DNA from: Selaginella tamariscina
Lineage: Eukaryota; Streptophyta; Lycopodiopsida; Selaginellales; Selaginellaceae
NCBI GenBank assembly: GCA_003024785.1
Contig: PUQB01000471.1
Span: 363,872 to 427,871, forward strand
DNA length: 64,000 nucleotides
Direction: 5' to 3'
This document shows, piece by piece, positions 2,928-48,241 of this stretch. The translations under genes and the position numbers were made by a program. The notes beneath the pieces were generated by a model that saw only the letters and a program-made list of their open reading frames with translations, was not told the DNA's origin and ran no database searches. Within the stretch, counting starts at the first letter, position 1. Each line of letters opens with the position of its first letter.

Positions 2928-5335
2928 TATAAGACTTCTTAATATAGTATTTGTTTTAGTAATATCCTTATGATATATATTCAATTGTACCCGTAGTGAG
3001 AATCACTATTTGTTGTTAAAGTATCTGTATAGGTTAGGAGAAGCTGTATATATTGAATTAATCTTTACAAATTATACACTTGGTGATATCATATAATTAG
3101 GTTAATTTGAATTTTAAATAGTTCAATTTTGCATGCTCTGCTTATGTATTCTAGTGTGTTACAATTTACAAGAATTTTATTAATGACCACATAAAAGAAA
3201 GTTTTTAGGGGTATACTTTGATGTGTACTATATTGTGGAGACTGGATGCCCTTACCCATTTGTATGTGATGTCCTCTACTTATAAATCTAATAATTCATA
3301 TTATTTAATTATGAATTTCTATCTTATAAAATTGTGTATTATATATAGCACATAGTTTACATATAACGCTACCATTGTAAGTACTATCTAAATCCATCTC
3401 GTCACCAATTGTTATATCTTATGGCTTTAGAATACATTTGTCTTGATATTTTTACACTTTCATATTTAGTCTTCCACATAAATTGTGTGTAATCCTCATG
3501 TCTAGATATAAATTCTTTTTATCTTAATCGTTTCATTTTGATGGCAGATTTGAAGAAACAATGGAGGGTGGGAGGGTTAAGAAGAGAGCAAGAGTCGTTC
3601 CACAACCTTCACCATCTCTTCCATATCTACCAATGGACATTCAATGTGTCATCTTGTTCAAGCTTCCTTTTCCAAGTTTGCTGCGTGCCCGGTCTGTATG
3701 CAAGGAATGGAAGGATTCGATTGACTCAGAAAGTTTTAGGAGCACATATCGTGACATAAGCGTGTGTGTCATGGCTCTCTCTGCGGAACTTGGATCTTGG
3801 AAGAATAGCCGTAACGGCCCAATCCGTGTTGCTCCAAGTGGCGATAATCAATTAGTTATATACAGTGGCTCTTTAGCCAAGTGGTTCCGAATTGGCTGCT
3901 TGCAGTGTAGGAATGTATGGTCTTGCTCAAAGTCAGGTCTGATCCTTTTAAGTGGTTATCCCTTGGTTGACGCATGCATGACACAGCCATTTGTAGTGGG
4001 GAATCCCATCACAAACAATTGGAAGGAGTTGCCTCCTTTACCACCAACAGAGGTTTATATTGGGGGGTATATATGTTATGAGTTTGCCACGATTTCAGAC
4101 GTCGGTAATGGTCATTACCAAGTTATGGTTGCAGTCCATTCATGCACCTACATGGCTTCGAGGACTTCAGTTCTGGTTTATGACTCTAGAGCATTGAATT
4201 GGACGAAGCATCCCATGGGATTGCGCACTTGTATGGGAACACACCTTCACGATGGCTGTTGGGCGACAGTTGTTACAGAAGATGGTAAGACGTATGTGAC
4301 TCCCAAGAGATCAAGGAATGTTGTACATAGGTATTTTGCATGTTATAGTGCGCAAAATGGTAGAGAGTGGGAAGTTTTGCTGCATGAACCCAAGCATGCA
4401 CAGGTGATTGCACTAGTGAATTGGGGAGGGATGCTTTATATGGTTGGTTACTACGAGAGGAACAATGCGACAGTACTCGGAATATGGTTGATCCGCATTC
4501 GAGGGATGCGTTTTATAAGTGAGACACAAATAGATATGTGGCTTAAAACATTTGGGCCAAGTAAGGCCAATTGGACATCATTTGTGAACTGTTGTAAACA
4601 TGGGGACTTCATACAGGTAAATTTTATGTGATTTGTTAAATTTGAGTAAATTATATATTTGCATTTGTGTTTTAGATTTTTGATGGGAGACACATGAACA
4701 ATCGTGTTGCAATGCGTATGATTTTGTACGATGTGAGGAAGGATGTTTGGAACCTAAAGACTCTTAAGAACAAGCCTAACGGATGGGCACGTGGACATGG
4801 GTATGATCTCGTGGGATTTGGCTTTGGAAGTCCTTAGCTTTTATTAATTTGGTGTGGATGGTTTTGTGTGGCGGTTTAGGTTTTTTTCTTTTAATATAGT
4901 GATAAGGCAAGTGCTTTGTAATTAAAACCATGCAGAAACTAAAGACTACAGTGTATATAATGGCAAGGGTAATAAATGATTAAAATAGCAAGTTTGTTTT
5001 AAGATATTTTATATTTTATTGTTCATATGTAAATATACATATCAAAAATATTTTATACTGTAAATAGTTATTTAAATGTATTACTATTCTTTATTTTTGT
5101 TTTATCACAACATATTATTTATGAAGTTCTATTTATGTCACTTCAATAAATTGGACACCCTCTTTATTCGTGTATTTAAAATCATCTTTTTTACGAGGTT
5201 TATACATAAATGTTCATATATTGTAGATAAATATGCTTTAGTGGATAATGAATATAATATTGATGATTAATAAATATAATATTGTTGGAAGGAGATTAAC
5301 ATAAAGAAAATAAACATTAATAAACAAGAAGAAAT
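2928..5335. repeat. Tandem duplication, copy 2
   Basis: Direct repeat of 1-2,404 in the same orientation. It ends abruptly at 5,335 within an AAGAAGAAAT stretch. Beyond that point copy 1 continues into its own flank, while copy 2 runs into pol-like sequence of a Ty3-type fossil. The missing remainder of the unit was not found on the far side of the fossil. Confidence 0.95.
3561..4837 (+). CDS. F-box protein with kelch/FBA-like C-terminal region, copy 2
   Basis: The predicted protein has the same exon 1 as the gene at 631-1907, with the same exon layout: exon 1 3561-4616, intron 4617-4675, exon 2 4676-4837. The F-box at about residues 22-56 and the repeat-like C-terminal region are unchanged, and no disabling change is seen. 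The copy keeps about 630 bp of upstream sequence, so it may carry the same promoter. It lies 500 bp from the broken Ty3-type fossil at 5,336. Whether both loci are expressed cannot be told from sequence; short RNA reads could not tell them apart over exon 1. Confidence 0.85.
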
Positions 5336-14007: not shown

Positions 14008-15738
14008 TGTCAGAGTTTTAACCCAAAGGGCCAACATGTGGCAACACGTGGCTGCCAGGTGGCCATTCGGCGTCATCACCCTGTGTGAGCAACGCTAAGT
14101 TTCCCAGAACAACCCCAACGACCCTTAGGAGTTAGACTCTAATGCCCAAGTGGACAGGAGACTTTAGGGTTTAGCCTAAGTCTCCCTAGAATGTCTACCC
14201 CCAAAACCCTTGAGGGATAACCCTAGTTGACTTAGGGTCTTGCCCTAGAAGACCTAGACAGGCTCATGCCCTAACCCCCATCAAGGAGACGTGTGTTCCA
14301 CACATACCCTCGTGATAGAGCTAAGGCATCGTCACTTACCCCTTGAGAAATCACCCTCATCCGGGGTACAACCCTTTAGGGCGACAAGGGGTACCCTGAA
14401 CCACAACTAACCCCTAAGGGTTTGAGTGGCCAAGTCATACCCTAGACCTAGGGCTAGTACTTAGTGAGGACATAAGTGTGCGCCGTAGGCGGACACGAGT
14501 GTTCTGCTAAGCAAACTCCCTAAGGTTAGGTTTGAGATAACCCTAAGGACATGACCTTGCGAGTGCCTCACGAAAGGGCTCCTACTAACACGCTTAGGTT
14601 GTTTAACCCTTAAATTTCAAGGAGAACACTCCCCTAGCCAAGTGTGCCAAAGCACACCTAGTTATGAGACCTAACCTCCCTTGAGCAGATGCCCAAGGCT
14701 TAGCACCCTAGTGCAAGCACAAGCATGTCTATTTGCTAAAATATCCAACCCCTTGGCGACAAGCCTATGACATAACCCCAAAGGGTGTGCCTCGGGCGTT
14801 GTACCATGTGACGTTTAGCCCAGTGTCACATCTCCATGTGACACTGCCTTTCCCGATGTGGCTATCATGCCATAGCCCTTAGATTCAAGAGTTGCACTAA
14901 GTGCCACAAACGTGGCTCCTAAATGCCAACTTTAGAATCCCTTAATGAACCCTCAGGAACCAGGTAACGAGTTGGCATCCCTTAATGAACCCTCAGGAAC
15001 CAGGTAACGTGAACCTGTCAAACAAGATCCCACGCCCACAGTTGGACAAGGACATAGATGTGCCTTGCTTGGCTGTGAGTGCTACACCTAGCTTGATGTG
15101 GAGGAGGAGGCTAGAGACAAGCCTTAACCTCTGCCTCTTGGAACATGCATTCCGACAAGACCTCCCAGGCATGGATTCGCCAACGTTAAGAGTAAGTTAT
15201 CCCGAAGGTGAGACATACCCCTAGCATCTGGAAGTTAGGGCGGCACAACAGAGGGTTGTGCTTTAACAACACAAGCTAGAGCTTGCACCGAGAGAAGAGT
15301 AACGAGCTCAATCATGAACCCAGAAACCCTTACTCCTATACTCTACCTTATTTATGTGACGGAGCCCCCCCCCCTCCTTTCCTGTATGTGTAAGTGGGTT
15401 GGCACTGAATTTTAGCCCCTCAGAGAAATTAACAATATAAGCCTATAACTCACCCTTTACTCCTACCCCTAAACCCTACCCAAGGGGGTGGGGTTTTAGG
15501 GCATGGGTTAGGGCAACCCTAGGGGTGTTCTTAACCCTACTTAACACGCCAAACTCATCTACAAAGACCAATCAGCCTATTCATGACGTCAAAATTGGGG
15601 GTGGGTTTCTAGAAAATAAGTTCTAGCTTCGCTTAGAGTTTTCTGTAAATACTTAATGACACCCAGCTGGACCATCATTAGATACCCAAGTGCACTAAGC
15701 AGGCCTGTTTCCTACTACATCTAGGGTCCATCAACATA
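14008..15738 (-). repeat. Family A 3' LTR, main part (continues at 19,121-19,187 after the nested insertion)
   Basis: Matches the LTR at 23,002-24,752. It is rich in CCCTA/TAGGG-type words, including CCCTAAACCCTACCC. The LTR is split at 15,738 by a DNA transposon and resumes at 19,121, ending ACTATGACA at 19,187. Confidence 0.9.
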
Positions 15739-16037
15739 CACCGGAAAATGTAAAATAAACAAAGCAAAAAAACTATGCTTAATTTTATAAATACTAGGGT
15801 AAAAAAAATTTGACTAACATACTAGGGGAAGTACTAAGGGTCGAAGAACAAGGGTTGGTTTTGGGTTTGTAACATGTATAAAATTATGTTATAATTAATT
15901 AAAATATAGTGAGCTAACCTAAACAGGGGATCCTAGAATATGCTTTAGGGTTCTTTATGTGAAGCGGTGGAGCGTGCTCCGCAGATCCGGCGGCATGGGT
16001 TTAGCTCTCCAAGATATGGCGCTGTGCAATATCAACG

Positions 16038-16357
16038 GTGGCCACTCAATCTGGTGAGTGGATTCATGGTTATACACTACCCCAAGAATATGCACCGATC
16101 ATCATCCCAGCGAATACTACACTCGTAATGAAGCTCTCTTGTTTAGCGGACAGTTTCCACACCATCTGGACAGCAGGACCAACAAATGAGAGGAGCATCA
16201 TCTCCATGGCCTTGGCCATCCATGACATGCCTGTGTACAGATTTCTATGCAATGCCAACAAGGATAAGCTGTGCAATGGGTGGTCTGAGGTCCATGGATA
16301 GGCCCCGGAGAAGACCCAATTTCGATCGTCCCAGTAGAACAGAGAGAATCAACAAGA
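16038..16357 (+). pseudogene. Unrecognised exon-like segment inside the CACTA-like element
   Basis: An open stretch of 87 codons (16,038-16,301) has ordinary protein-like composition (YTLPQEYAPIIIPANTTL, FHTIWTAG) unlike the AT-rich surroundings. A donor-like ATG|GTAAGA follows near 16,357. I do not recognise the family. It lies 230 bp upstream of the MECR exons in the same orientation and may be a third captured fragment or the 5' part of a chimeric transcript. Confidence 0.4.
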
Positions 16358-16592
16358 TGGTAAGATCAACCACATTTATCGATGTCCACAAGTAAGTGTG
16401 TATTGTAGATATACAAGTTACAGATTCAATTAATTATATGAAAATGTGGTGTAGATGTATATTATATAAACATAAACCACAGGGTCATCAACATATGTAT
16501 ATTGTGTATATAGATACACACACATAAATTCGTGTATGTATGTATATACATACATGTTTCTTTTATACAAATGGATGTTTATATAAAAAGAA

Positions 16593-17933
16593 GTGGAGCT
16601 TCCTGGTCGTCCTCTTGAGAAAGGGGAAGTATGCGTCAAGATGCTGGCAGCTCCTATCAACCCATCAGACATCAACAGAATAGAAGGTTGAACGTGTGTG
16701 TACCCGTAACATAGCCACTTCAGTATCATACAGTGTTCTCAATAGTGTATGTAAGTTATAATGTTGTACGCTGTACACTTTACTATGGTTTAGCATTTGA
16801 TTATAATCTATATGTATTGTATGTACATGTACATACATTTTATGTGTTAGAATTGGACTGGATTTTGAGAGAGAGAGATTTATTTGCGTTTATATATATT
16901 GATTGTAAGTTTATATATATATATATATAGATGTGGCAGACACATGTAGATATACATACATTATCAATGGTTTATTAATTTTACATGTTTTATATAAGTT
17001 TAATTTTTTTGTCTTTTTCTTGTTTTCAGGGTATATCCGATGCGATCTACACCTCCTGCAGTTGCCGGTGGTGAAGGTGTTGGACAGGTAGTTTCTGTTG
17101 GATCGGATGTTAAACATTTGTCAGTAGGAGATTGGGTCATTCCAACATATTCCGGAATCGGTTAGTATAATAAGTATATAATTTATATATAAATACTTTA
17201 TCTTAATCCAGTTAAATAAATACATAGATAACCGAAGTTACTGAACATTATAAAACTTAGCTTTTAAGTTACACACGTATCTGTGCAGGAACGTGGAGCA
17301 CACATGTGCTAAAAGAGGAGAGTGTATGGTGTAAAGTTCCTGATAATGTGCCCATGGAATACCTGGCTACCATCTCTGTCAAACCCTGCACCGCACTCAG
17401 AATGCTCGAAGATTTTGCTTCGTTAGAAGCTGGTAATTAATTAAATATTAACTTACTAAAACTTCTATTAATTGTTATTTTTGAAGTTTTACATTTAAAA
17501 ACTAATATATGTATTTATATTTGTGTGTGTGTGCGCGCGCGTTTGTTGCAGGGGATGTGGTTGTTCAGAACGGGTCTACGAGTATGGTTGGACAATGTGT
17601 CATACAAATTGCACACGCAAAAGGTCTCCAGACCATCAATATTGTGCGTGAGAGGTACATAACGTATATTTTGTGTACCGACGTACACATAGTCGTATAC
17701 ACGTACATATAGATAGCTGTAACCTATGTACGTGCGTACATAGTAGATACACACGTTTTGTAAGTGACAGTCATTACACGCTGATACATATGAATGCATA
17801 TTGTGTGGTTTCTTATATAATTCGTGATTTCAGGCCAGGAATTGAAGACACTAAGAAAAAGCTAATGGATTTAGGTGCAACGCAAGTCGTGCTTGACAGT
17901 CAATTTGATTCACCAAACTTCAAAAATATTGTG
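16593..17933 (+). pseudogene. MECR: Mitochondrial enoyl-thioester (trans-2-enoyl-CoA/ACP) reductase fragment, five exons
   Basis: MECR/ETR1 is an NADPH-dependent medium-chain reductase that catalyses the last step of mitochondrial type II fatty acid synthesis. Exons by splice signals: 16,593-16,686 (KMLAAPINPSDINRIEG), 17,030-17,160 ([17 protein letters not shown], then [12 protein letters not shown]), 17,289-17,432 (LATISVKPCTALRMLEDF), 17,552-17,654 ([19 protein letters not shown], the nucleotide-binding region) and 17,834-17,933 (KLMDLGATQVVLDSQ). Exons 2-5 join in frame through GT/AG introns; the first junction is one base out of frame. The targeting peptide and the C-terminal part of the family are absent, so it cannot make the full enzyme. 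It is carried by the CACTA-like element, and a macrodomain fragment follows in the same direction. The intact parent gene should lie elsewhere in the genome. Confidence 0.85.
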
Positions 17934-17982
17934 GTGAGTATTTCATATACGAACAGATGTAAGCACACACGTGTGTGTGTGA

Positions 17983-18405
17983 GTGTGTGGGGAGAAACCG
18001 ACCCCTCCCCCACCTCCGCCTCCGGAGCCACTCACTGGAGTGGTCAAGTACAAGCTGTCCGAGTCCAGCACTCTTGTTATCTGGAAAGGGGATATAGGGC
18101 TCTGGTTCATCGATGGACAAACAGATGCAGTCGTAAGTTTTTTTGTTCTTCACACACACACCCACACACACTGTATGTATGGACAGTTCAGACAATTATA
18201 ATTCCTTATAAGCAAATTATCATCTAAGTCTATATATGCATTTATACGTCTTGATACGTCTTATTTGATTGTTTATTTTGCTCATTGTTTGGATGATGTT
18301 TCACTCACAGGGCTGCTTTGAATCTGGCAACATCAGAAGGCATTAAGTACATTGCCTTCCCGGCATTGTCTTGCGAGCTTTATGGGTAAAGCTTGCAACT
18401 CTCTG

Positions 18406-18436
<31 letters not shown>

Positions 18437-18758
18437 TACAATGGCTTTCTTTTATCTAGTTATCACACACACACACAGAGGAGAAGAACACAAGACATGT
18501 AGCTTAAAAGAACAACAGTTTTCAGCCGAGTCCTATTATATATATTCCTATATAGCATACATACAAGTATTCTAGATGTGTATGCATTCATATATATCAG
18601 GATTGACAATATACGTATAGGCTTGTGCTTACTGCAATAATATTATAATAGCATATTTATCTATCTAGCTATACACACACACAGTATAACTGATGAATCT
18701 TGTTTACATTAGTTTCTTTTCTTGCAGAGGCCTCGTTGATGCAGAACCTCACGCATGA
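17983..18758 (+). pseudogene. Macrodomain (ADP-ribose-binding/deacetylase type) protein fragment
   Basis: Three pieces resemble plant macrodomain proteins. The first, about 17,983-18,132 (SSTLVIWKGDIGLWFIDG, then QTDAV), ends at a GTAAGT donor. The second is 18,311-18,385 (ALNLATSEGIKYIAFPALS). The third is 18,728-18,758 and ends in TGA. The second and third join in frame. Between the first and second, the family normally has the NAAN and GGGVDGAIHRAAG motifs that bind ADP-ribose; that segment is missing here and the direct junction is out of frame. The first piece starts with a proline run (PPPPPPPEP). This is therefore a partial copy that could not bind ligand normally. It sits directly after the MECR exons inside the same DNA transposon, so a chimeric transcript is possible. 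Confidence 0.75.
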
Positions 18759-19187
18759 AGAAACGCTTCCGAAAGGTGGACTGGTGTGTGTGAGAGAGAG
18801 AGGGGATTCACACAGAGATCACCATAATGTTTATTATTTTTAATTTAATTAATGAAAGTTAAAGAGTTTTTATTAAGTACAATTAAAATCAATAAATCAA
18901 TCTAAAATTAAATAAATAAATTATATAGAAAACAAATAGAAATTATTACTGTATAAACAAGGGTAAAAACAAAATAATAATACAATGTATATTAACTATA
19001 TTAAAAAATAAACCAATGTTTGACCCCTAGTAACTGCTTTTTACAAAAACAAAGGCTTGTTTTCTAGTGTTGTTTTTTACCTTAAAAATGCCAAAAACTA
19101 GGGGTTTACATTTTCCGGTGATAGTACAGTAGGTAACAACAGTTAACATCCAAAGTAAAGGGTCAAGTCATAGTAAAAACTATGACA

Positions 19188-19201
19188 CACTCCCCGCCTT
19201 T
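19188..19201 (-). other. Family A polypurine tract
   Basis: On the minus strand AAAGGCGGGGAGTG ends directly against the 3' LTR (TGTCATAG...). The position and purine content fit a plus-strand primer site and support the minus orientation. Confidence 0.7.
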
Positions 19202-22200
19202 GAAAATGTCAACGTCCTCATTGACGTCCAACTCCAAGACTAAATAATGTTAGAGAAAACTAACCAAAACTAACATATCACTCTATGCAGAGTTAGCCAA
19301 AAGTTCACATAATTTCATTACCCCCTTGCATTACGCGAAGCCAAGTACTTTAAAACCGTCGTTCACTGAGTCATAAACCCAGTTGCCGGAGGCACCACCT
19401 ATGACATGAAGTCACTTGGAGACTTTTTGCACGTTTGCAAAGTCTGTCACCCGACGCACACAACACTGGTTAATTTCTTTATTTAACTAGAATTTATATT
19501 GGAGGCCTTTAGTTAGTGTTGTTGTCGGCCCCTTAGTTAATAAGAAATAAAGACTTACTTTATTCCTTAATATTAAACGCTATTGACGACCTCTATCATC
19601 TAGCGCACAATAAGCATTTCTCAAATGCTTGACCAAACACCTTCACATTTCTTTGATTTTCCAATGGTCCCACATTTCCACATGTTACGGTATTATAACC
19701 TCACATTTCTGCATCCCTCAGTGTTTCTCATTACTCCTTTACATAAGGGTCTACTACTATACCTCCCTTGTTAATATATAGCTACGCCAGACTAAGTATG
19801 AGACTTTTATCGGAAACAAGCTCTTTTCCGATATAAGAGTACTATTCATAAAACCTTGTTCTTTATAAACATGTCAATCTGGCCAGAGGCGATCACAGAG
19901 GCGCATGGCTATACACATGTATACAACAAGATTATGCCAACCTACCAACTGCCATCCACTTGGTGTGTTATTAACATAAATTTATTCCCAATAGGAATCA
20001 AATTCAGTCAAATTTGCGACCAAGTGTGATAGCACTACCATTTGTCTTTCGCAACCAACTTTGTACTCTTTCATAACACCGACCAGTTCAGGGACCAGAT
20101 AAGCTAACATACTTTTCTTATAAACCAATGTGGAAACCAGGAAATTTAACCCATCTCTAGTGCCTCAATCGACAACCTTTAAATAACACGTCTCTTAATT
20201 GTCATCTCATTGTACTCATTCCCCAAAGAGCACATCATACTAGATGCCGTTCAATACTTCCTAACTCTTTATCTCACTAAGTTTAAAAATACCAAATTTT
20301 AAAACTTAATTTCCACGATAAGAGTCTCCCTAAACTTGTAATACTGCACGTCTTCATAACATTATATTGATCTCTAACTATTATGTAAATGTTTCTCAAC
20401 ACTATATCGAAGTACATCATTTTCATTAATTTGAGCAATTAGTGTTTTGACAAACATCTTTTTAAACTAATCCTTATTCCATAAACAGTTGTAATTTTGA
20501 TATTGATACTCTAGAATGGATAATGATCGTTTTAACGTTCAAATCCTAAGTTTATCAACTAGTTGTTATACTAGCGGATATAAACTTACAATTATATCAA
20601 TCCATCAAAATGCTACAACTATAATATAGACATGGTCTTAGTTTACATGAACCGAACTTGAGTTTTTGAGATGGACATATAATGTTATGACAATATTCCG
20701 AGGAACTTGTTCAGAGACTAAGAGCAATCATGAATTAGTGTCTGGTTTATCTAATTGATTTAGTAAGATATCAACCTCCACATAAATGTTATCATAACAC
20801 TAAAGTGTTATATCAACTTCATGTTTTAGTCATACCTTATAATTCAATAGATCTCCCCAAACATGAATAAAATATCTAGTTCAGTACATTGAACTAAGAT
20901 ACATTATTCATTCTAGACACCTAGCATCCAGAAAAGTATCACATTGCCCTCAAGCAATGTATTGAGAAATGCCTCATTTCTCAACAAACTTAAAAACATG
21001 TTTCAAGTTATAACACTAAGGTAGTGCCTTACCAAAGTGTCAAACTCAAGTGTGTTTGAGTCTTTTTATTATATGATTATGGCCACCTCATGTGATCATA
21101 ACCAAGTTTTGATATTGAACGCTCTAAACTCAATATTGAAGAGATATTATACCATATTTTGACAAGTCATTTATAACCAATCTTGAAAAGATTGTCACAA
21201 ATTCTGCTAAAGTATAGAATATAAATATCTCAACAGATGAGGTGATAGGAAACCTCATATTCTCGAACCGGATATTGGACGAACCTTGAACTACAATCAT
21301 CAAGAAGGGACACCATCTTCTTGAGCTAATCCCGCTACACAATATCATACTTACAAGAATATTGAACCAACTTAAGGAACACCATCAAACCTTGAGATAG
21401 AACTAACAACTAACCCAAGGAATACAATCAAATCTTGAGTTAAGAATAGTTCTATTTTTTCAATATTCTGAAAGATTAAAGATACATACTTTATTTGTTA
21501 TTTAAGTGCCCACATTTGCGACCATGATATAAAGTCAAGAAACCGTCTTTTGAATAATCGTATTCGACTCTAAAATGAAATTGATATTGAAAATCAAGAT
21601 CAACTTCTAATTCTCATCGAACACCGACTCTTTGAAGAGATACATGCACTTAAACCTCCAATGGAAATCCGACTATTACTAGCTCATTGGTAATTCTCAA
21701 CATAAGTTATCAAACTTAACAAGTTTTCTTACTTAGTCGATAAATAAAGTGAAGAATCCCAAATCATGCTCTTCTTAACCAAGGAATCACCTTTGTTCAA
21801 GAACTTATCCCCACATTTCAAACAACATTACAAATTTCAATATTAAAGAGTTAATAATGAAAATGTGCAAGTGTGCGCCAAACGCCTTCACTATGCAAGT
21901 CCTTCATTACTCAGTAAACTAAAATGTAAACATATGTTTCCAACATTTCTTTTTAAGATACATCACGCCATCCATCCAAAAGCTGCATTGATAGAAATGC
22001 AACATTAAATTCGTCTACTGCCAAAATCTATTATTCTATTTCTTTCTTATGATCTCACATAAGATAACTTCATAATCAAGTTAGTCGAGCTAGCTAACTT
22101 GAATACAAAGTGCGCGCTTACAACCAACTAAGGTTTCAAGTTGTACTTTGTTCAAATTAGGTGACTTGAACATAGTAAACTATTTTACTTAATGTTACTT

Positions 22201-22980
22201 GTAGCTAGTGTCATCAAAATATTGCAAACATCGGACAATACTTTGATTACATTGAATCTAAGAATCAACTGTTTAACATATTCATCATATGTTAATATTT
22301 GACATTTCGTTGTATTATAAGTTCATCACCATAGTCTACTTTTTGGAGTTACACTCTGGAAAACATGCACTATAATGAGAGCTTATTTTACACTTTATGT
22401 CAAAATGTAGTATTCCCTCTTATGTTTGAATATGCCCCTTTTTTCCGGAGTTAAAGACTCACATTTAAACATAAGTCTTTCCCCGTTTGAACACTACAGT
22501 TGGATCCGATATTGAATCTTGACATAAGCCAAACTCAAAGGACACTATCCGTTTCCAAATCATGTGTTATCCCAAATTCAAACACCTTAAAGAAAAAGAA
22601 AAATTTTCAATAATGGGTAAGCTTAGCATATCACATGATCCACTTCACAAGACTTAGTTTGTAAGCCAGAACAAACTAACACGCCACGTCTTGTGAAAAC
22701 ATATGGTAAAGTAACCTGGACAACCTTAAGGTCAAATAACCTAAAGAAAACGTAACCTGGCATGCAACTTGGAAGTTGTCTTCCAAGTGCTACCTTCGAC
22801 ATTGGAGTCCATAACCCACACCCACTTATTAAGTAGATGTTCTTTGAAGAGTTATAGATCTCAGGACAAACTCTCCACACAGAATTCAGACGTTAGCCGA
22901 AAGTGATATAGTACTTCAAAAATTTAGAACAAACTAAACCCTGAAACACACTACAACTTTAGGCAGTCCTGCTGATCGTA
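19202..22980 (-). other. Family A internal region, no coding capacity recognised
   Basis: About 3.8 kb of AT-rich sequence with only short open frames and none resembling gag, protease, reverse transcriptase or integrase. Its first 180 bp (next to the left LTR) and last 130 bp (next to the right LTR) resemble the matching borders of family B at 53,916-54,080 and 59,220-59,356. Confidence 0.75.
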
Positions 22981-22982
22981 GA

Positions 22983-22999
22983 GAATGGCTCTAATACCA
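22983..22999 (-). other. Family A primer-binding site (tRNA-iMet-like)
   Basis: On the minus strand the LTR end CTCTGACA is followed, after AT, by TGGTATTAGAGCCATTC. This is close to the TGGTATCAGAGCCAT complement of plant initiator methionine tRNA used by many plant retroelements. Confidence 0.75.
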
Positions 23000-23001
23000 A
23001 T

Positions 23002-24752
23002 TGTCAGAGTTTTAACCCAAAGGGCCAACACGTGGCTGCCAGGTGGCCATTCGGCGTCATCACCCTGTGTGAGCAACGCTAAGTTTCCCAGAACAACCCC
23101 AACAACCCTTAGGGTTAGACTCTAATGCCCAAGTGGACAGGAGACTTTAGGGTTTAGCCTAAGTCTCCCTAGAATGTCTACCCCCAAAACCCTTGAGGGA
23201 TAACCCTAGTTGACTTAGGGTCTTGCCCTAGAAGACCTAGACAGGCTCATGCCCTAACCCCCATCAAGGAGACGTGTGTTCCACACATACCCCTGTGATA
23301 GAGCTAAGGCATCGTTACTTACCCTTTGAGTCACCCTCATCCAGGAGTACAACCCCTTTAGGGCGACAAGGGGTACCCTGAACCACAACTAACCCTTAAG
23401 GGTTTGAGTGGCCAAGTCATACCCTAGACTTAGGGCTAGTACTTAGTGAGGACATAAGTGTGCACCGTAGGCGGACACGAGTGTTCTGCTAAGCAAACTC
23501 CCTAAGGCTAGGTTTGAGATAACCCTAAGCACATGACCTTGCGAGTGCCTCACGAAAGGGCTCCTGCTAACACGCTTAGGTTGTTTAACCCTTAAATTCC
23601 AAGGAGAACACTCCCCTAGCCAAGTGTGCCAAAGCACACCTAGTTATGAGACCTAACCTCCCTTGAGCGGATGCCCAAGGCTTAGCACCCTAGTGCAAGC
23701 ACAAACATGTTTGTTTGCTAAAGTATCCAACCCCTTGGCGACAAGCCTATGACATAACCCCAAAGGGCGTGCCTCGGGCATTGTACCATGTGACGTTTAG
23801 CCAGTGTCACATCTCCATGTGACACTGCCTTTCCCGATGTGGGCTATCATGCTATAGCCCTTAGATTCAAGAGTTGCACCAAGTGCCACAAACGTGGCTC
23901 CTAAATGCCAACTTTAGAATCCCTTAATGAACCCTCAGGAACCAGGTAACGTGAACCTGTCAAACAAGATCCCACGCCCATAGTTGGACAAGGACACAGA
24001 TGTGCCTTGTTTGGCTGTGAGTGCTACACTAGCTTGACGTGGAGGAGGAGGCTAGAGACAAGCCTTAACCTCTACCTCTTGGAACATGCATTCCGACAAG
24101 ACCTCCCAGGCATGGATTCACCAACGTTAAGGGTAAGCTACCTCGAAGGTGAGACATACCCTAGCATCTGGAAGTTAGGGCGGCACAACAGAGGGTTGTG
24201 CCTTAACGACACAAGCTAGAGCTTGCACCGAGAGAAGAGTAACAAGCTCAGTCATGAACCCAAAAACCCTTACTCCTATACTCTACCTTATTTATGTGAC
24301 GGAGCCCCCCCCTCTTTTCCTGTATGTGTAAGTGGGTTGGCACTGAATTTTAGCCCCTCAGATAAATTAACAATATGAGCCTATAACTCACCCTTTACTC
24401 CTACCCCTAAACCCTACCCAAGGGTGGGGTTTTAGGGCGTGGGTTAGGGCAACCTAGGGTTAGGTCAACCCTAGGGTGTTCTTAACCCTACTTAACATGC
24501 CGAACTCATTTACAAAGACCAATCAGCCTATTCAGGACGTCAAAATTGGGGGTGGGTTTCTAGAAGGTAAGTTCTAGCTTCGCTTAGAGTTTTCTGTAAA
24601 TACTTAATGACACCCGGCTGGACCATCATTAGATACCCAAGTGCACTAAGCGGGCCTGTTTCCTACTACATCTAGGGTCCATCAACATAGTACAGTAGGT
24701 AACAACAGTCAACATCCAAAGTAAAGGGTCGAGTCATAGTAAAATTATGACA
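23002..24752 (-). repeat. Family A 5' LTR, intact length 1,751 bp
   Basis: Starts TGTCAGAG and ends TATGACA in plus-strand reading, with the target duplication AATAT directly outside. It provides the uninterrupted version of the site where the sister LTR received the CACTA-like insertion. Confidence 0.9.
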
Positions 24753-26849: not shown

Positions 26850-27814
26850 TATTTGATACGGTGGATACTGCTCACAAAAATTTTCGAGATTCTTCTTTCT
26901 GAGGCACGTATCCAAGTAGTTCACTAGCTCATCCATGATATCGTATCAGAATATGGATCGAAAGTGATTGGATGAATACAAGCAATGTTTTGGTTGAGCA
27001 TAGCCTTCTGAGGAGAGTCGTCTACTACTAAGATATGTGCATTCTTCATTATCCTTAAGCGACTGATCTCCCCATGAGTCCCAATTATTCTTTCATTCTT
27101 GAAGAAGTATGGCTTGCTTTCCTTTCTTATATTGTGAAATTCGAGAGGTTTATAACACATTCGCTGGTCAAAAATCCAATCTTTACGAATCACCTCTTCT
27201 GCAACACTACAATGTTTCTTAAGCAAATTCAACAGCGGTGTTAAGTTATGAATCTGCATGCATGACCAAATCCCCACAAGCGCACCCATCTCCTTAAGCT
27301 TTTGAAAGAGACGATCCAACCCTGGACGAAAAATAATATCATATCGAAATTTACCATGACAAGGAATGAAATCTCCTTGTTTGATTTCTTTTTTCCTATC
27401 CTCGGGCCTTTGTCGATGAAGCAGAACACCATTGACATCCAACAACACAATATGGCCATGAGTAACATGAGATAGCGTTGCCTCTTGAATACTTTGCAAA
27501 TCACTTGTTTGCTCCCTTTCACATTTATCCGTTGCACTATCTCGTTGCCTATCCCTTCATCATTTAATTGTACATCATCCTTACAAGATTCAGATATTGC
27601 ATGCGCTGAAGAAATTGATTTCGGAACTGAAGCCAATAAAAGATGATGAAAAAACTGAAGTGGCCCCCATGGTAACGATGTTTTGAGCTGCATTATTATC
27701 CATTTCCTGCATGAACTCTGTCATTCTGACATGTGGCACAAGAAATTGTCGCCAAACCCCTCTCTTACCTCATGCCAATGCTGAAAATCCATGTTCTCAA
27801 TTGTTTCATTACAT
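26850..27814 (-). pseudogene. FCP1/NIF-type HAD phosphatase-like gene remnant
   Basis: HAD-fold phosphatases of the FCP1/SCP group dephosphorylate phospho-serine, for example on the RNA polymerase II tail. Visible on the minus strand: motif I HIVLLDVNGVLL (27,40x-27,44x; the usual DxDGT/L has N in place of the second D), the helix FRPGLDRLFQKLKEMG, then SCMQIHNLTPLLNLL, and motif III ILVVDDSPQKAM near 27,020. A small upstream exon at 27,769-27,814 with good splice signals and a following exon starting at 27,687 precede the domain. The likely C-terminal end (DELVNYLDTCLRKKN) lies in a different frame from the main 191-codon open frame, and the N-terminal exon also changes frame. The catalytic second aspartate appears substituted, so activity is doubtful even if expressed. 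It lies downstream of, and parallel to, the ParB/methyltransferase gene. Confidence 0.65.
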
Positions 27815-36345: not shown

Positions 36346-36740
36346 CAGTTGTATTAATAAAGCATAAGATATTATCTTTATACATAATTATGTATTATTG
36401 CACATGCATATTATTAAGCAACCGTAGTTATAATTTCTTAGAAATATTGCATAAACAGATATCATAAATAACACAATTATTTATGTGCAGGACAATATGT
36501 ATAATACTAGGATAAAATATGTCTTATTCGAAACAACGAGATAGTTGGCACTAGAACTGTGGAAGTTCGAGATGATAATGCATCATGTCACAATATTGCC
36601 CAAGGATCTTGTGTGTACGTATGGGTGAACACCATTTTTAAGCTTGAGGTTCCAGAATGGAATTTGAGAAGGGTTCTCCTGTATTGTGGGATTTGGATGA
36701 AGTCAAGGCTGACATAGAATATAGAGTCACAAACAAACAG
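36346..36740. other. Upstream region of the DUF7869-like gene
   Basis: AT-rich to 36,485. An acceptor-like TTATGTGCAG at about 36,489 and less AT-rich sequence after it suggest an unplaced 5' exon or leader. No protein family is recognised. Confidence 0.35.
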
Positions 36741-36765
36741 TAGCACGAGTTTTTCAGATGATGGC

Positions 36766-39510
36766 TTGCCTACTGTGATGGATGAGGTGATTCTCTTTCT
36801 TCATGAGATTGAGGTTGGGAGAGGCATCATCACAGCTATAAATTCAATGGAAGTAGTGTCAAAAGAGAAACTAGGGTCCGACTTCGTGGGTGTAGTTGTG
36901 ACAAAGGTTTCACCTAATGGCACTTTGCATCCTGGATCCCTCGTGAGGTGGCGAACATCTGAATTAAGACGGGAAGATGATTCAACATATTCTGGGTTGA
37001 ATTTCAATAATAACAACCCGGAAGAACAACTCATATTTGAAGAGGTTCCTTGCATTGGTCCTATTGTAAGAAAAAGGCGATTCATGGGTTGCAAATCTTC
37101 CCCTGCAAGTTTCAGCAAGAGGGTCAAGATGGATCCTACATCTTCTGAAAGTGTTATGAGCATTTCCACGATTGATTGCTACAAGAAGAAGTGTTGTCAG
37201 ATGGCAGACCGGAATGAAATTACCCAATGTAGACATGTCTTTCGTACGCTCACCCAAAAGCAAAGGCATGAGTTTGTATATGCAGCACTAACTGGGTGTA
37301 TTGATGGAATGACCTCAGACACAGGTTATCAGAGTACATCCATGGTATTTAATAAGGTGGCCATCTGCTTCAAAGCTTGGTACAGTATATAGGGATCCCA
37401 AAGACCACGTTCTACCGTCGGAGGGATGAGTGGCTAGATGGAGTGCGGACCTCAGTACATGGGAACACTCGCTTGGTCAAAACCCGCTCTCACATTATGG
37501 CAGCCATAGAGATACTCAAGGCTTTTGTGGAAGCAAATGCAGACATGATGCCTCACAAATGCCGAACCACAAATGCAGGGATCAGGGAAATCTCAAGGTT
37601 TTGCCTTCAATCTACACTCAATTGAAGCTGTGTGAACATGTGAACAAGTGCCTCAATTTGATGGGTCTGCAAGCAATCTGCACTGGTACCTTTAACAACA
37701 TATGGAATACTCATTTTAAGGATGTGGAGATTGCAAAACACTCTAGCTTTTCCAAGTGTGACACTTGTACATCATTGAAGGCTAGAGGCTTGTGCAAAAA
37801 CCTTGGTGGAGATCACTGCCATTCAAAAGAAGATGGAGGCCCACATGATTGCACAACAAACTTGCCGGTCAGTATTATGCACACCGCATGCTTTCTGTGT
37901 CACGCCCATCAGAGTACCTGTGCTTGATCCATGACAAGATGGATCATTCAAAGACCAGCATTCCAAAGCTCGTTGCAACACCAAAGTGCCTTGGAAATGT
38001 CATGAAACTTCCGATTTCATTGACAGATGTGCTAACACATGGACACGGTTGTGAGTCATATGGGACACTTTTCACTTCCACATTGGTCTAGTGACTCCAA
38101 TTTCACTATTGGGTCGTTGGACATGTGTTTCAGAAACTTGAAGCCCACTCATAGACACGTCCTATCAGTGATCTCAAAGTGAAGAAACAACACCTTCAAC
38201 CTTTACATAATGCTCTCATGAACACGTCTGCACTTGAGGCTACTTGGGAATATGAGAGGCATTGTCAGCAGCCTGCACAAAAAACAGATGGCCCTGTTGA
38301 GAGTTCAGGTTCAGTGGAGGGATCTAGCTCAAATAGTGTACATGTGTCCTCAACATTAAATAAGCTTCCTTGTCATTTGCTTTTACAAATGGATAATTGT
38401 GTAGGCAAGAACAAAAATAGGTAAATCATTTTACTTAAGGTTTCTCAAGCTCATACTTACTTTTATTATTTTCTAGATATGTGCTAGCATACTTGTCAAT
38501 GCTTGTTGCCAAAGGTGTGTTTGAGACAATCACGCTCAATTTTCTTATGGTTGGTCACACTCATGAAGATATTGATGCGTTCTTCAGCAAGGTCTCCAAC
38601 TCTACAAAAAGGACAAGTGCACTTACCTTACCGCATATGATGAATCTTTTTTAAAACTGCATCTCTAAAAAAAGTTGTGCTTTGCTTGTGACTGAGGTGC
38701 CAGACTTCAAAAAATTTCTCAAGGAGTATATAAAAGAGGGGAGTGATTCTTTAGTTGGTCACCTTGTGCCGCTACAATTCTTTTTCTCTATACGAGATGG
38801 TATACCTATTATGCAGTACAAGTTACGGCCATCAAAGCATGAGTGGTTACCAAAAGAGGGGTTAATGCTCTTCAAAAGTGAAGAGAATGGAAAGCCACTT
38901 CTCCCAAAAGGACAACCACACCCTATTCCATTGAGTGCCCAGCTCAAGGAACAAGAGGTTATTATTGATGGCATCAAAAAATATGTGTCATGGGTTCAAA
39001 ATCGATGCCAAAGAATTCTAATAAGGCAACTGGTTAGTCAGAACTATATAAGCATGTGGTCGACTATTGGGAGACTGTTGTTTGAGAGTTGGAAGGGCCT
39101 ATTATCACAAGTACAGAATTGCAACACCCTTTTTGGCCTAAAACAAGGTGGCGAGAGGAGATTGAAATAACATGACTGAGCACAGACGACATAGAAGCCA
39201 GTAGTGATGTGGAAGTGCAACCCCACACTTTGTTGTACAAAGGAACCAAAAACCTAAAGCATACTTTGATTGCTGCCAGGATCTTCAAAAACTAATGATG
39301 GTTCTCATTACTCCAGATGCGTCATTAATCAGCCTATTTGGATGGGTCAAATTATCGACACACCTGAAGTAATTACAAAAAATAGTATTGTTAAGGTTAC
39401 ATGGTTCAAACCACAAAAAAGGCGACACGAGAAGGAGAGCGAAAGATATAATGGATGCCTAGAGAAAACATGGTCTCCCAATCAAAAGACCCAGCATGTT
39501 TTATAAATGT
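36766..39510 (+). pseudogene. DUF7869-like gene (transposase-like or host gene of unknown role), frame-disrupted
   Basis: Segments in order: an N-terminal part with FVGVVVTKVSPNGTLHPGSL (about residues 45-65 of the 36,766 frame); a helix-turn-helix-like IPKTTFYRRRDEWLDGVR (about 37,390-37,440); a Cys-rich FSKCDTCTSLKARGLC (about 37,750); IHDKMDHSKTSIPKL (about 37,925); LLLQMDNCVGKNKNRYVLA, split by an intron at 38,421-38,475; FLMVGHTHEDIDAFFSKVS (about 38,545); and a C-terminal LFKSEENGKPLLPKG (about 38,870). The D...D...HTHEDID layout matches DUF7869-type proteins, abundant in mosses, lycophytes and oomycetes, as I recall; the spaced acidic residues suggest an RNase H-like core, which is inference. 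Coding sequence changes frame several times (near 37,390, 37,640, 37,850, 38,650 and 39,170). No terminal repeats were found around it. Confidence 0.6.
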
Positions 39511-40089: not shown

Positions 40090-43000
40090 TGCATTAAGGA
40101 TTAAATTATAAAATAAGTAACTGTCACCTAGTGTTTTAGTTTTATTAAAAAAAAAGGAGATCACTTGTATATGCTTATTTTAAATAATATTTACAATATA
40201 TAATACATAAATCTTAATGAACCCGTTAGGAGTTAACAACATTCTTTCTTATACTATCCACATAAAAATGGCTGTTCCCCTTTTTTCCTGTTATTCATCT
40301 TGTTATCGTTGTCCATCTTGTTACTACATATAAAATAGTATGGTTTTTTGAGCGGGTTTCTCTTTAAAGTAATATGAAAACAAATATATGTACAACAATG
40401 AGAGAGAGAAATAGATATATATGCATTAAAAGTAATAGAAGTAATTTAAAGTAGCACTAGTTTAAGGTCTCAGTCATTTCAGCTAATTTAAATTTTAATA
40501 TTGTTTAAAAGTTCAAATAAGAGAAAATACTAATATTGCTGAAATTTTCTTATAATTTTAAGATAAATTTAAATAATGTAAAGCTATATTCCTATATACA
40601 TAGAGGTCTGTATAAATGCACATACGAATGCTATGAACATGCACAGACTGAAGAAATCACAAATAATATTTATATATTTATATATATATATATAATATAT
40701 AATATATTTTATACAAGCTCATAGATTAGGTCTTGTGCATCTTAATGGTAATGGATAATCTTGTGTGATGTTAACATTGATCATGGGTGATAGTCTTAGT
40801 TCTAGTAACAAACATGCATATGCATGCATGCGCACGTGTGTGTGATTATTGGTGTGCAAAACTAATGACGATACCATTAATACAAACTGAATTGATTCAC
40901 TTACAATATATATAGGTTATATATCTAATGCATATATTAATGTCAAACTAAAGTAACATGGCTAGCTTCCCTTGTTTCAACAGCTTTTGTTACCTATTAT
41001 CAAATTTTAAGCTTTCATTTCGACTTTAACATTGATAAAGTAATAATATATCCATTAACATTCCTACGGTCAATAAATGTTATCCGTACGTTACAACAAT
41101 ATACAAATATATGTTGTATATATAAAAAACTGTTTAATATAACTTTCACTATAATAATAATAATAAATGATTCTATTTGTTTAATATAATAAATAAATAA
41201 ATTAAAACCAGACTTATTACAATAAAAATTCATGTTCCTTAACCATGCTATTATAATCAAGAATTCATATTTCATAATAGAATTAAAAAAAATCCTTTTA
41301 TTAAACAAAATAAATCTATATTCAATAATAATAATTTAAAGGTTAAATTATTTTACTCATTTTCTTTTTAAAAATTGATCAAGTATAAGTTTACATACTA
41401 CACTGTTTTAACCTTAAATTTACTATATCATTAGAATATACTGTATTACCAAATTTTAATTTATAAATCTGTATTAAAATGTTTTGGGTATAAATTTTAA
41501 AGTAAATTTAAATCAAAACATGTTCATAGATAATAAATTCTGAATTGTATTAAATAGCAAATTATGGAATATATGTAATGCAAAATATATAGTATATAAT
41601 TTAATGTGTGTGTATATATATATTATGTGTTAATGCTTGATGTTCAATACTTGTAGCCCGTGTTATTGCTTAATGTTCAATACTTGTAGCTCGTGTTGGT
41701 TTTAATGATCACTTTTTTTATATAATTTTTTCAACTTTGTAATCCATTCTCCATTATTTATTTTGACAATTTTTTCATTGTTCATTTTGAATTTACAATA
41801 AGTATTCCATTAGCAGTTTGAGTCGGTATAAATACACATGATGATTTTTAAAGTACTATAACAAGTCATTCTCCAATTATTGTGATATATCCGTATTTTT
41901 ATTTTAAGCAAGTGCATAAATATAAAGAAGAACCTACAAATTTACATAAGTAATTAAAAACCTTATTTAAACATATGATTTACGTAAAGTCTTTTTGTGC
42001 AACTCCTCTTGTACCTTGTTTAAGTGGCATCTCATGTTGTGTTTATATTAGATTGTTTTCACGATCCTTATTATTCGTTGGTAGGCCGTACAATAGTTTG
42101 AACTCAACTTGCATTTGTTAAACTCAGATACCTCTAGCTTCACCAATCAAAATAGAAGTTAAATAATAAAATAAGCCACTTCAATTGTAATGTCGTCCCA
42201 TTTCACCATAATGAAGAACACGTGTCACACATTGCGATCCTTGTTGTGTAATTCTTACAGAAAGTCAATTGTTTGCTTCCCATTGCTTGTGATATTTATG
42301 ATTTCCTCTACTCTATTGTGCAAAAACAAAAATGAGGCATGTTTTAGTCATACAATGTTAAATACCCTAAATTATGTAATGAAATATACATAAAATCACA
42401 CATAGGTTCGTCGATGTGTCCTAAGTCATGTAATTAACTATGTATAAAATTAAACGGTGTAAAAAATATATATTAAAACACACGATTAACAATGTCAATA
42501 CAAAAGAACTCCATTAAAATCCAACTCAACCTGAACATTTAGTTACACAAAAAGTTATGTCCTTTAGTCAAAGTCATAAAAAATAAAACTTAAAAATAGC
42601 ACATTCTAGCTTTGGATGCATGAGTATCTTTTGATATAAAGAGAGATGACTTGATTAGTGAATTTAAAATTCCAATTTTAAACCCAATCTTGAGAGTAAT
42701 TATGGATTTTAAGATGGTGAGCTTGTGCTCGTGGAACCGTGTAAGAATAAATAGTGCTAATTTAAAATAAAAAAACCACCTATAAACTAGATGTTTTTAT
42801 GGACGGTATATAATACTATTAAATTCAAGGAATGGGTTTCATATGTATATTATGATTATTTTAATGTGTGTGTTGCAAGTACAAATGTCAGAATGAGACA
42901 AAAAAATTTTAATATACAATCTTTAGCTAATATGTGGAATGACAAGGATGAAATTTTGTGGCTTTTATAAATTTCTTGTTGCACTTCAATTAGTCGCAAA

Positions 43001-45177
43001 AGTTTCCAGTCATAATACACGATCGTAAGATTGTTTTAAGCACAAACTTTTCTCAAATAATGGCAATGTTATATGGGAGTTTTTAACCTTGCCTTCAACG
43101 TCTATATTTCTATATTACGGTTCTCATGTGAATATATAAGGATGGCTGCATTTTACAATATTTGCCATCACAATTATGTTAATTATTAGATCGCTACTTT
43201 AGGTAACATGTAGGTTCTACTGCAATCTCTGTAATTTTGGGTTTGACCATAATGTATATAAATATATATTGTATTGTAATTGTCATAAGAATCCGTCATA
43301 TGGAAAGATCCAAAAGTGATAGAAATTAAGGCTTCCATAAAACAATATGCTTTTGTAGTTACACAGTTTCAATATGTATATTTCATGTAAACTTTCGCCT
43401 TTTTTTTTTCCTATTTCACTTAGTTATGTATGTTTTTTAATAATGATTTCTACATAATTTGTTACAATGGATATAGATACATATTCTTTTGTATATGTAG
43501 TATTGAGTATGTATTCACTGCTGAGATATAATAATATAGCTTAATATATTTCACATAATACATTGCTTGATATTTCATCGGCATTTTCATCATTTCCTCT
43601 ACTTGTGCACATAAATAATCGTATAGCTATATGCACACACCTGCATATCGATGTACCTACACATACATGTATGCAAGATGCGTATGTGTATATATAAACA
43701 TAAATAATTTGTAAGGAGCTTGCACTAATCATACGAGCAAAAGCATGAGCTGCCTAGGGATCCCCATCTACATTAATACATACAAGTGCATATAATAATA
43801 CATGTGTATAATTTTATTACTGAACGAAATGAATTTTCAGCAGGCTTCATTAAGTATACAATTGTAATTATAACTTATTTCTCATAGCATGTTCTTAAAC
43901 ATTTATTTAGAGGGATCCCATACACAGTGATTTGTATATATATATATACATGAATACATTCTGTTATATTTTTTTCTAATATATTTAATGTAGAACTACC
44001 TTATCAAAGCTAGTGTTACTTAATGCTCCCTAATCACCATAACACACTTCAAACCACATGTGATTTAAAGTACGTTGGCATGATATATTTATATTTATAT
44101 GTAAATTAAACAAGACAAACTACCTAAAATAATTTTTAATTTAATACAATAAAAGATTGTGCACTTCTGTTTTCTAGTGGAATATCAGGTATACGATACA
44201 TCGTACAAGGAACAACTATGTGTGTGTGCACGCACACACATGCACACGCACATCCACGTTTACATACGCACTTATCAAGCACGCGAATGCCTACGTGCAC
44301 TCTTACCACGTGCCTAGGCACCGTTGGATAAGAATGGCTTGCAATATAAATTTAGAACAATTAACCCTAGGCAATCACTTGAATTTCCTTTCTTTATTCC
44401 ATAAGCATGTATTGTAGCGCGGAGGAATCTAACTACGATGAATTGATTCTACAACTGGTATTCGAGTCTGGTAATTTAATTGATGCAAAGGATCTAGCAA
44501 GGCTTCCACTTCTTTCTCGCCATTGGAATCAACTTTGTGCACAAGTGCAACCATGTAGCTTGTCAATCCAAGTTTCTCGGTGCAAAAGTCAGCGGCTTGC
44601 AAATAAGATATGTACAAAGGCTCTTTTGTCTAGACGGGGTTGAAACGAGTTACCGTCGATTTCATGCGGTGGCATCCCGTCCAGCTACACCATTTTCAAA
44701 TGCCTTGGTCAATTTACAGGGACACTTGCAAGAGTTTGTATTGCCAATGTATAAGTGTAACTGCATTCGGCTCCAAACCCTAGTAAACAATTCCCCTTTC
44801 CTCGAGTCATTCAAGGTTTATGATATGACCTATGCATCACCAACTGACTCAAGCCTCGAGTTCAACAAGAAGAGTTTGAGATGCATATCAATGGAGGGTT
44901 ATTCGCACGTACATGTCAAAATAAATTGCCCAAACTTGATGGAATTATCAATTAAGTTATCTTGTGACTCAAGCAATGTATACTTGACGGGCTGCAACCA
45001 ACTCAAGAGGATCGAAATTAGAGCAAAGAACTTTATTCATTCAACTTGCACTTTCGATCATCTAACTTATTTTGAGGCTTGCTCCACAAACATACGGACG
45101 ATATAATAAGGTGTGTGGTTCTTGAGACGCTAATATTGCAGTATTGTAAAGGTATCTCTTCTCCTTTGGAGATCTCA
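40090..45177 (+). repeat. Large inverted repeat, arm 1
   Basis: About 5.09 kb that reappears in reverse complement at 47,469-52,520. Paired coordinates sum to about 92,610-92,645 throughout, showing few large indels. Arms differ by a few percent by eye, with mostly small substitutions and run-length changes. The arm holds about 4.3 kb of AT-rich DNA upstream of an F-box/LRR gene plus the first half of that gene. It ends inside the coding region, so the break at 45,177 defines the copied segment. Confidence 0.95.
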
Positions 45178-47468: not shown

Positions 47469-48241
47469 CAAGATCTCCAAAGGAGAAGAGATACCTTTAT
47501 AATACTGCAATATTAGCGTCTCAAGAACCACACACTTTATTATATCATCCGGTACGTTTGTGGAGCAAGCCTCAAAATAAGTTAGATGATCGAAAGTGCA
47601 AGTTGAATGAATAAAGTTCTTTGCTCTAATTTCGATCCTCTTGAGTTGGTTGCAGCCCGTCAATATACATTGCTAGAGTCACAAGATAACTTAATTGATA
47701 ATTCCATCAAGTTTGGGCAATTTATTTGACATGTACGTGTGAATAACCCTCCATCGATATGCATCTCAGACTCTTCTTGTTGAACTCGAGGCTTGAGTCA
47801 GTTGGTGATGCATACTTCATATCATAAACCTTGAATGACTCGAGGAAAGGGAATTGTTTACTAGGGTTTGGAGCCGAATGCAGTTACACTTATACATTGG
47901 CAATACAAACTCTTGCAGTGTCCCTGTAAATTGACCAAGGCATTTGAAAATGGTGTAGCTGGACGGGATGCCACCGCATTTGAAATTGATGGGTAACTCG
48001 TTTCAACCCCCGTCTAGACAAAAGAGCCTTTGTACATATCTTATTTGCAAGCCGCTGACTTTTGCACCGAGAAACTTGGATTGACAAGCTACATGGTTGC
48101 ACTTGTGCACAAAGTTGATTCCAATGGCGAGAAAAGAAGAGGAAGCCTTGCTAGATCCTTTGCATCAATTAAATTACCAGACTCGAATACCAGTTGTAGA
48201 ATCAATTCATCGTAGTTAGATTCCTCCACGCTACAATACAT
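47466..48241 (-). pseudogene. F-box/LRR gene, truncated copy in arm 2
   Basis: Reverse-complement copy of the 5' half of 44,407-45,953. It starts at the equivalent ATG (48,241) and is cut at the arm end (about 47,469) after SSPLEI. The LRR part (TGCNQLKRIEIRAKNFIHS, then YFEACSTNVPDDIIKC) is open across the place where arm 1 changes frame. The G run near 48,008 has 5 G and shifts the frame. Without its C-terminal half it cannot encode the full receptor, but it and its copied upstream region could give antisense or hairpin RNA with the source gene. Confidence 0.8.

Follow-up and report, generated by a model that had tools for sequence, protein, structure and literature searches.

Host gene fragments in a family of CACTA-like transposons of Selaginella tamariscina

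The element and its insertion site

A stretch of 64,000 nucleotides from the lycophyte Selaginella tamariscina (GenBank assembly GCA_003024785.1, contig PUQB01000471.1, positions 363,872 to 427,871 of the forward strand), referred to as the window, was analysed around a DNA element that carries pieces of host genes. The limits of the element were exact (15739-19120), and it represents a 3.4-kb subtype of a larger family. Its two 16-bp termini are perfect terminal inverted repeats (TIRs), located at 15739-15754 (CACCGGAAAATGTAAA, plus strand) and 19105-19120 (minus strand). They are enclosed by a 3-bp target-site duplication, ATA, at 15736-15738 and 19121-19123, in agreement with a first-pass annotation of this DNA. 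The termini did not occur again within the window at up to 3 mismatches. Both subterminal regions (15755-15940 and 18801-19104) are AT-rich and contain two ACTAGGG motifs each, those on the right in opposite orientations. The element interrupts a long terminal repeat (LTR; 14008-19187, minus strand, limits read by eye) of a host retrotransposon. When the flanks were joined minus one ATA, they aligned to two sister LTRs, at 23002-24752 (LTR2, minus strand, empty target site with a single ATA) and at about 56554-58233. The intact empty site previously reported for one sister LTR is thus present in two.

Captured gene fragments

The MECR block of the element spans 16336-17989 on the plus strand and comprises a 5' leader piece, exons E1 to E5 with their introns, and 56 bp of intron 5. 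The exons were located at 16587-16686 (E1, start approximate), 17030-17160 (E2), 17289-17432 (E3), 17552-17654 (E4) and 17834-17933 (E5), all on the plus strand, and are separated by four GT-AG introns. Exons E2-E5 matched the human trans-2-enoyl-CoA reductase 2vcy with E 7.7e-45. The five MECR exons with introns described earlier are confirmed. Exon 0, i.e. 212 bp of the donor gene with the start codon and first exon, is missing from the window copy, and the comparison with the donor (locus L031) showed that the C-terminal exons are also absent from the captured block.

Pieces of a macrodomain gene lie on both sides of MECR. The 5' part, at 16249-16335 on the plus strand, includes an ATG at 16294 (MDRPRRRPNFDRPS) and is contiguous with 17987 onward in eight MECR-free members of the family. 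The second half of the same exon (LTGVVKYKLSESSTLVIWKGDIGLWFIDGQTDAV) is found at 17987-18132 (plus strand), and a later macrodomain exon (AALNLATSEGIKYIAFPALSCELYG) at 18311-18385 (plus strand). Since the start exon is also present upstream of MECR, the MECR block splits that exon, i.e. it lies inside macrodomain exon 1. In the window the ATG at 16294 reads into MECR leader sequence after codon 14. The pieces at 18028-18132 and 18311-18385 were 47% and 61% identical, in the right order, to a host macrodomain gene (L050), with E 1e-10 and 7e-8 for a 1.4-kb subject. These two same-strand matches bear out the earlier statement that the macrodomain parts are oriented as MECR. Support from the family libraries was weak: the second piece matched Pfam Macro with E 2e-4, 0.3 bits under the cut-off, while the first piece alone gave no match in NCBIfam or PDB and, together with its proline-rich start, gave a weak Pfam match to an unrelated plant domain (E 0.0013). 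When the two pieces were joined, the macrodomain matches in PDB had E values no better than 0.32.

At 18231-18247, the point from which the central macrodomain exons are missing, two BLAST matches overlap by 17 bp. The ADP-ribose-binding segment is absent from the window copy, as had been noticed before. The segment was most likely deleted later and not lacking at capture, since four sister elements still hold the central exons. As a separate observation, of the 25 genomic matches to Pfam Macro at least 4 (on contigs C591, C438, C471 and C671) adjoin these TIRs, so that mobile copies make the macrodomain gene family look larger than it is.

The first-pass annotation had described cargo from two host genes. 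This count has to be raised to at least three, as an antisense fragment of a major facilitator superfamily (MFS) gene had been overlooked. This exon fragment, of an SV2/sugar-transporter-like gene, is located at about 16080-16237 on the minus strand. It matched SV2A (E 1.2e-4), the cation-transporter model TIGR00898 (E 1.3e-7) and the SV2 model (E 2.1e-6), the two model scores being far below the whole-protein cut-offs, and no Pfam match was obtained. The remaining selected stop-free pieces of the element received no convincing name in Pfam or NCBIfam; the best was DPM2 (E 0.045), on the strand opposite the MFS piece.

Members of the family and donor genes

The genome search covered 300,702,823 bp in 1391 contigs, the window being part of contig C806. 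The element produced at least 62 match rows, with the best 40 of 538 candidates scored, and at least 26 rows, the window's own included, cover at least 94% of its length. The exact TIR was found 100 times in forward and 90 times in reverse orientation, compared with 0 + 0 for a reversed control. At up to 2 mismatches the numbers were 287 + 285 in the genome and 104 + 112 for the control, an excess of 356 termini that corresponds to about 180 elements in the family.

Strict 3-bp duplications of varied sequence were present in 14 of the 20 best copies (L001-L020), and two further ones (L005 and L013) appeared duplicated by eye, with damaged ends. Another 29 loci (L021-L049) were selected for MECR matches or listed TIRs, L031, the MECR donor, being among them; all 22 elements of this set that showed a TIR pair within the sequence fetched had a perfect 3-bp duplication. 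The termini are therefore not unique, and other copies have their own duplications, as the capture model had predicted. The copies differed at 0.03 to 1.7% of the aligned bases.

The 20 best copies and the 22 TIR-paired further elements were typed by module. Five of these 42 elements consist of the ends, a backbone stretch named X and other cargo; eight carry the macrodomain without MECR or MFS, and 29 carry MECR. The MFS fragment was present in all 29 MECR-bearing elements and in none of the 13 MECR-free ones. Half of the macrodomain-only elements (4/8) keep the central exons in recognisable order. The first part of the left subterminal region is common to all 42, and X (about 700 bp, present in most other subtypes) is absent from the window copy at 15912/15909. 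Loci L032, L034, L040, L042 and L045 are family members with quite different cargo. Four cargo pieces from macrodomain-free, MECR-free elements gave no convincing Pfam or NCBIfam name.

Donor loci were found for two of the three fragments. L031, on contig C1315, is a MECR gene with the start exon, E1-E5 and the C-terminal exons, and the 6,001 bp fetched contain no TIR when up to 2 mismatches are allowed. The MECR sequence of the copies differed from it by 0.4-1.2% over 1331-1379 aligned bp, with no reading from 3 of 20 copies. In the window, 16380-17989 aligned to L031 over 1622 columns with 9 mismatches and 91 gap columns, and 16336-16391 matched a separate upstream stretch of the same locus, the missing 212 bp of the donor lying between these two matches. 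L052, on C949, is a partial MFS transporter gene (Pfam Sugar_tr, E 4.4e-28 with exons joined by hand) that matches the MFS fragment at 98.7% over 158 bp and contains further MFS exons; no exact TIR was present in 2,001 bp. Host relatives of the macrodomain gene were located on C1013, C1026 and C969, a minority of the 94 matches having been examined, and the one on C969 (L053) gave no match to the element DNA at E 1e-4. Alignment of the exons to intact genes, as had been suggested, thus returned a donor for MECR and relatives for the macrodomain. MECR (C1315), MFS (C949) and the nearest macrodomain relative (C969) are on different contigs, which speaks against an origin from adjacent parent genes.

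Classification of the element

The element and its relatives have the features of Pack-TYPE transposons, namely matching TIRs with a duplication, host coding sequence, and multiple related elements. No transposase was recognised by Pfam in the scanned stop-free pieces of the element, a subset of its frames. The 3-bp target-site duplication is a CACTA feature. ACTAGGG occurs four times, in both orientations, across two 134-bp subterminal stretches; among 2000 shuffles, 19 had some 7-mer with four occurrences. The subterminal repeats described for CACTA elements are longer, at 10-20 bp (PMC8978399; this and the other papers cited are drawn on in part).

Other classes of elements fit less well. 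Helitrons have neither TIRs nor target-site duplications, and both are present here. In Pack-MULEs the TIRs are long and the duplications measure about 9 bp, compared with the 16 bp and 3 bp found. PIF/Harbinger elements need a TWA target-site duplication, whereas the duplications observed vary widely. The strict ones are mostly not TWA (CCT, TCT, TTT, TCA, ATG and others, with one TAA), which argues against the element belonging to PIF/Harbinger or to a rare relative with 3-bp duplications instead of CACTA. This assignment is considered unlikely: the CACCG termini, which differ from CACTA, and the lack of a linked transposase speak for it, but the CAC ends and the 3-bp duplications fit CACTA-type elements, as the ACTAGGG subterminal motifs may, and matches to Transposase_21, the Tnp2-type transposase that mobilises CACTA elements, exist in the genome (28, best E 1.4e-11). 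One TIR was found 8.7 kb from a sub-cut-off Transposase_21 match on C280. Its partner terminus was not found among the exact matches listed, and no transposase could be linked to the family through C280. Given the CACCG ends, the element was not filed as CACTA proper, although it works like a Pack-CACTA; the earlier label "CACTA-like" is fair for its behaviour and does not extend to its ends or to a linked transposase.

In the window, the open reading frames (ORFs) at 36718-39170 showed a weak match to Transposase_23 (TNP1/EnSpm; E 0.023), and no CAC-type TIR pair was found around the transposase-like ORF at 36.7 kb.

Order of acquisition and mechanism

In eight of the 42 typed elements, all MECR-free, position 16335 is joined directly to 17987 (junction letters were seen in 6 of the 8). 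One MECR-free element, L041, has an open frame from the ATG via MDRPRRRPNFDRPSGEKPT... into the macrodomain. An exact removal of MECR that restores an open native exon is improbable, which indicates that the MECR block entered the captured macrodomain exon. Insertion of MECR into that exon, leaving no TIR relic, is the most likely interpretation of the junctions. At the right MECR junction the matches overlap by 3 bp (17987-17989).

For Pack-CACTA and other Pack-TYPE elements, a tandem-fusion model has been proposed, in which two neighbouring elements become one and enclose the DNA between them (PMC8903248). Related elements capable of fusing exist in this genome. However, the MECR block lies within a single macrodomain exon whose halves are contiguous in the eight MECR-free elements, every internal 16-mer of the element differs from the TIR at 5 or more positions, and the sequence fetched around the MECR donor is free of TIRs. 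Gain of the MECR block by tandem fusion is for these reasons regarded as improbable. The junctions favour an internal, repair-like uptake, in which the MECR block would be a patch of DNA copied during repair of a break or gap inside the resident element, and not the result of a tandem fusion.

The comparison of family members supports the following order. A macrodomain gene with its introns would have been captured first. A MECR fragment would then have entered the middle of macrodomain exon 1, and an MFS exon fragment would have been added just upstream in the same lineage, these two gains having come in either order. Locus L046 (4361 bp) keeps X and the MECR first exon and has already lost the central macrodomain exons; the window subtype is without all three. 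Losses of the backbone of about 700 bp, of the MECR first exon and of the central macrodomain exons would thereby have led to the 3.4-kb subtype, which was presumably amplified and landed in the LTR. For its movement the element would rely on an autonomous relative that provides the transposase in trans.

The observations comprise constant termini, 3-bp duplications at a variety of target sites, numerous copies, three host fragments and, for two of these, donors free of TIRs. Very probably, a non-autonomous, CACTA-like cut-and-paste transposon of Pack-TYPE character took up pieces of host genes repeatedly and distributed them. The proposed capture of host gene exons is borne out by the non-unique termini, the duplications and the separate donor contigs.

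Several observations weigh against this reconstruction. The strict duplication is absent from six of the 20 best copies, and the termini read CACCG instead of CACTA. The search for a transposase gene between these TIRs gave none, and no connection to the family could be established for any of the 28 Transposase_21 matches. Among the macrodomain relatives fetched there was no donor, the nearest (L053) reaching 71% in one exon. Several MECR-free members have a worn first macrodomain exon. Of the 29 MECR-bearing elements, five are without any scored macrodomain module and three more have the 5' part only; these are read as putative deletions. In MECR exon E2, at 17062, nine bases match part of the TIR with one mismatch. 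Finally, the repair mechanism is suggested by the junctions only.

Coding potential and variation among copies

Compared with the MECR donor, one base is deleted at the E2 acceptor of the window copy, so that the E1-E2 join is out of frame; in most copies E1 is longer by 2 bp than in this one. The possibility that this frame break was inherited from the capture was rejected, since the E2 deletion is absent from the donor and from 14 of 20 copies.

The idea that a chimeric MECR-macrodomain protein is made and kept by selection was evaluated. In its favour, E2-E5 are stop-free, and on paper an in-phase join of E5 to the macrodomain half-exon would be possible. In addition, exons were less variable than introns among the 20 copies (12/858 vs 31/859 filtered columns, Fisher P 0.005). 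However, the MECR exons of these copies contained 8 distinct nonsynonymous changes, one of them a stop, and 0 synonymous ones. The probability of no synonymous change under neutrality is 0.12, and no protein constraint is seen in this pattern. The antisense MFS piece was as little variable as the sense exons. Furthermore, MECR is without its first and C-terminal exons, the macrodomain exons, when joined, leave the frame and reach a stop, and indels disrupt the frame of the window copy. A selected chimeric protein is therefore very hard to reconcile with the data, and a working chimeric enzyme appears unlikely. By analogy with the soybean element Tgm-Express1, a chimeric or mixed transcript is possible; any such transcript would be mixed, mostly untranslatable RNA.

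The variation was also compared by region (copies L001-L020; 15755-19104). Variable filtered columns amounted to 12/858 in exons, MFS included, 31/859 in introns and 19/191 in the ends, the difference between exons and ends having a Fisher P of 7e-8. The exon-intron difference was significant at G/C positions (P 0.0006) and not at A/T positions (P 0.25). In CHH context, without the low-complexity filter, the variable columns were 2/276 in exons, 14/263 in introns and 16/85 in the ends. The filters were chosen after a first look, so the pattern is to be taken as a lead only. A second capture route besides tandem fusion, in which an internal break of a resident element, here within a previously captured exon, receives a copied patch of an unlinked gene, together with exon-like cargo that escapes silencing marks on the ends, is offered as a tentative but plausible proposal.

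Comparison with known systems

In Tgm-Express1, a soybean CACTA element in the wp allele, splicing incorporates captured exons into mixed transcripts (Zabala and Vodkin 2007; PMC1947982). Like the present element, it is non-autonomous, has TIRs and contains fragments of several unrelated host genes, introns included. Tgm-Express1 holds five fragments, lies in a gene intron and is documented by cDNA, whereas the Selaginella element has CACCG ends, lies in an LTR and is known from DNA alone. Unlike Tgm-Express1, it has one captured gene inside another captured exon.

The likeness to Pack-CACTA and Pack-TYPE elements (PMC8903248) includes TIRs with a duplication, the lack of a transposase, host coding DNA, and clusters of elements with newer internal DNA. 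Acquisition is proposed there to occur by fusion of neighbouring insertions, whereas here MECR apparently entered one resident element internally. In the Tpn1 family of Japanese morning glory, known second-hand through PMC8195511, one family of ends is likewise combined with many cargoes (28 types); Tpn1 is an angiosperm CACTA family, unlike the lycophyte element. Chenopodium CACTA elements (PMC8978399) also contain captured gene fragments and subterminal repeats, but their captures are described relative to the transposase region and their ends are CACTA.

No report of a joint macrodomain and enoyl reductase capture, or of gene capture by a lycophyte CACTA element, was found in the open-licence literature, and part of the open-licence titles included none on point for such capture in non-seed plants. 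This kind of gene-capturing transposon is already known; here the steps and some of the donor genes are still readable. The way in which TIR transposons acquire pieces of unlinked genes is still an open question, and a 2026 review considers that a further, undiscovered capture mechanism may exist (PMC13317346). If the proposed order is right, the family holds the states before and after an internal capture as well as two donor genes. With MECR-free and MECR-bearing elements, two donors and readable junctions, capture models become directly testable. Gene annotation could also be misled, as at least 29 mobile copies contain MECR exons that share about 99% identity with the host gene.

Other features of the window

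The host retrotransposon extends over 14008-24752 with an internal region at 19188-23001 and AATAT on both sides (limits read by eye). Its orientation appears to be that of the minus strand, and the internal region contains no ORF of 150 codons. Next to the LTR at 23002 lies the sequence TTGGTATTAGAGC, which resembles a primer-binding site. The LTR pair differed at 52 of 1734 aligned bases, 49 of the 52 being transitions, with 82 gap columns besides. The LTR of the same family at 56554-58233, one of the two empty sites, has TTTTG on both sides and is for that reason probably a solo LTR.

A direct duplication (1-2404 and 2928-5335) is 99.75% identical, with a 367-codon F-box/kelch-like ORF in each copy. 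A large inverted duplication, 88-96% identical, was observed at 40095-45175 and 47471-52514. The ORFs at 44.5-46.0 kb gave weak F-box/LRR-type matches, and an ORF resembling an NLI-interacting-factor-like phosphatase (E 5.9e-11) was detected at 26924-27556 on the minus strand.

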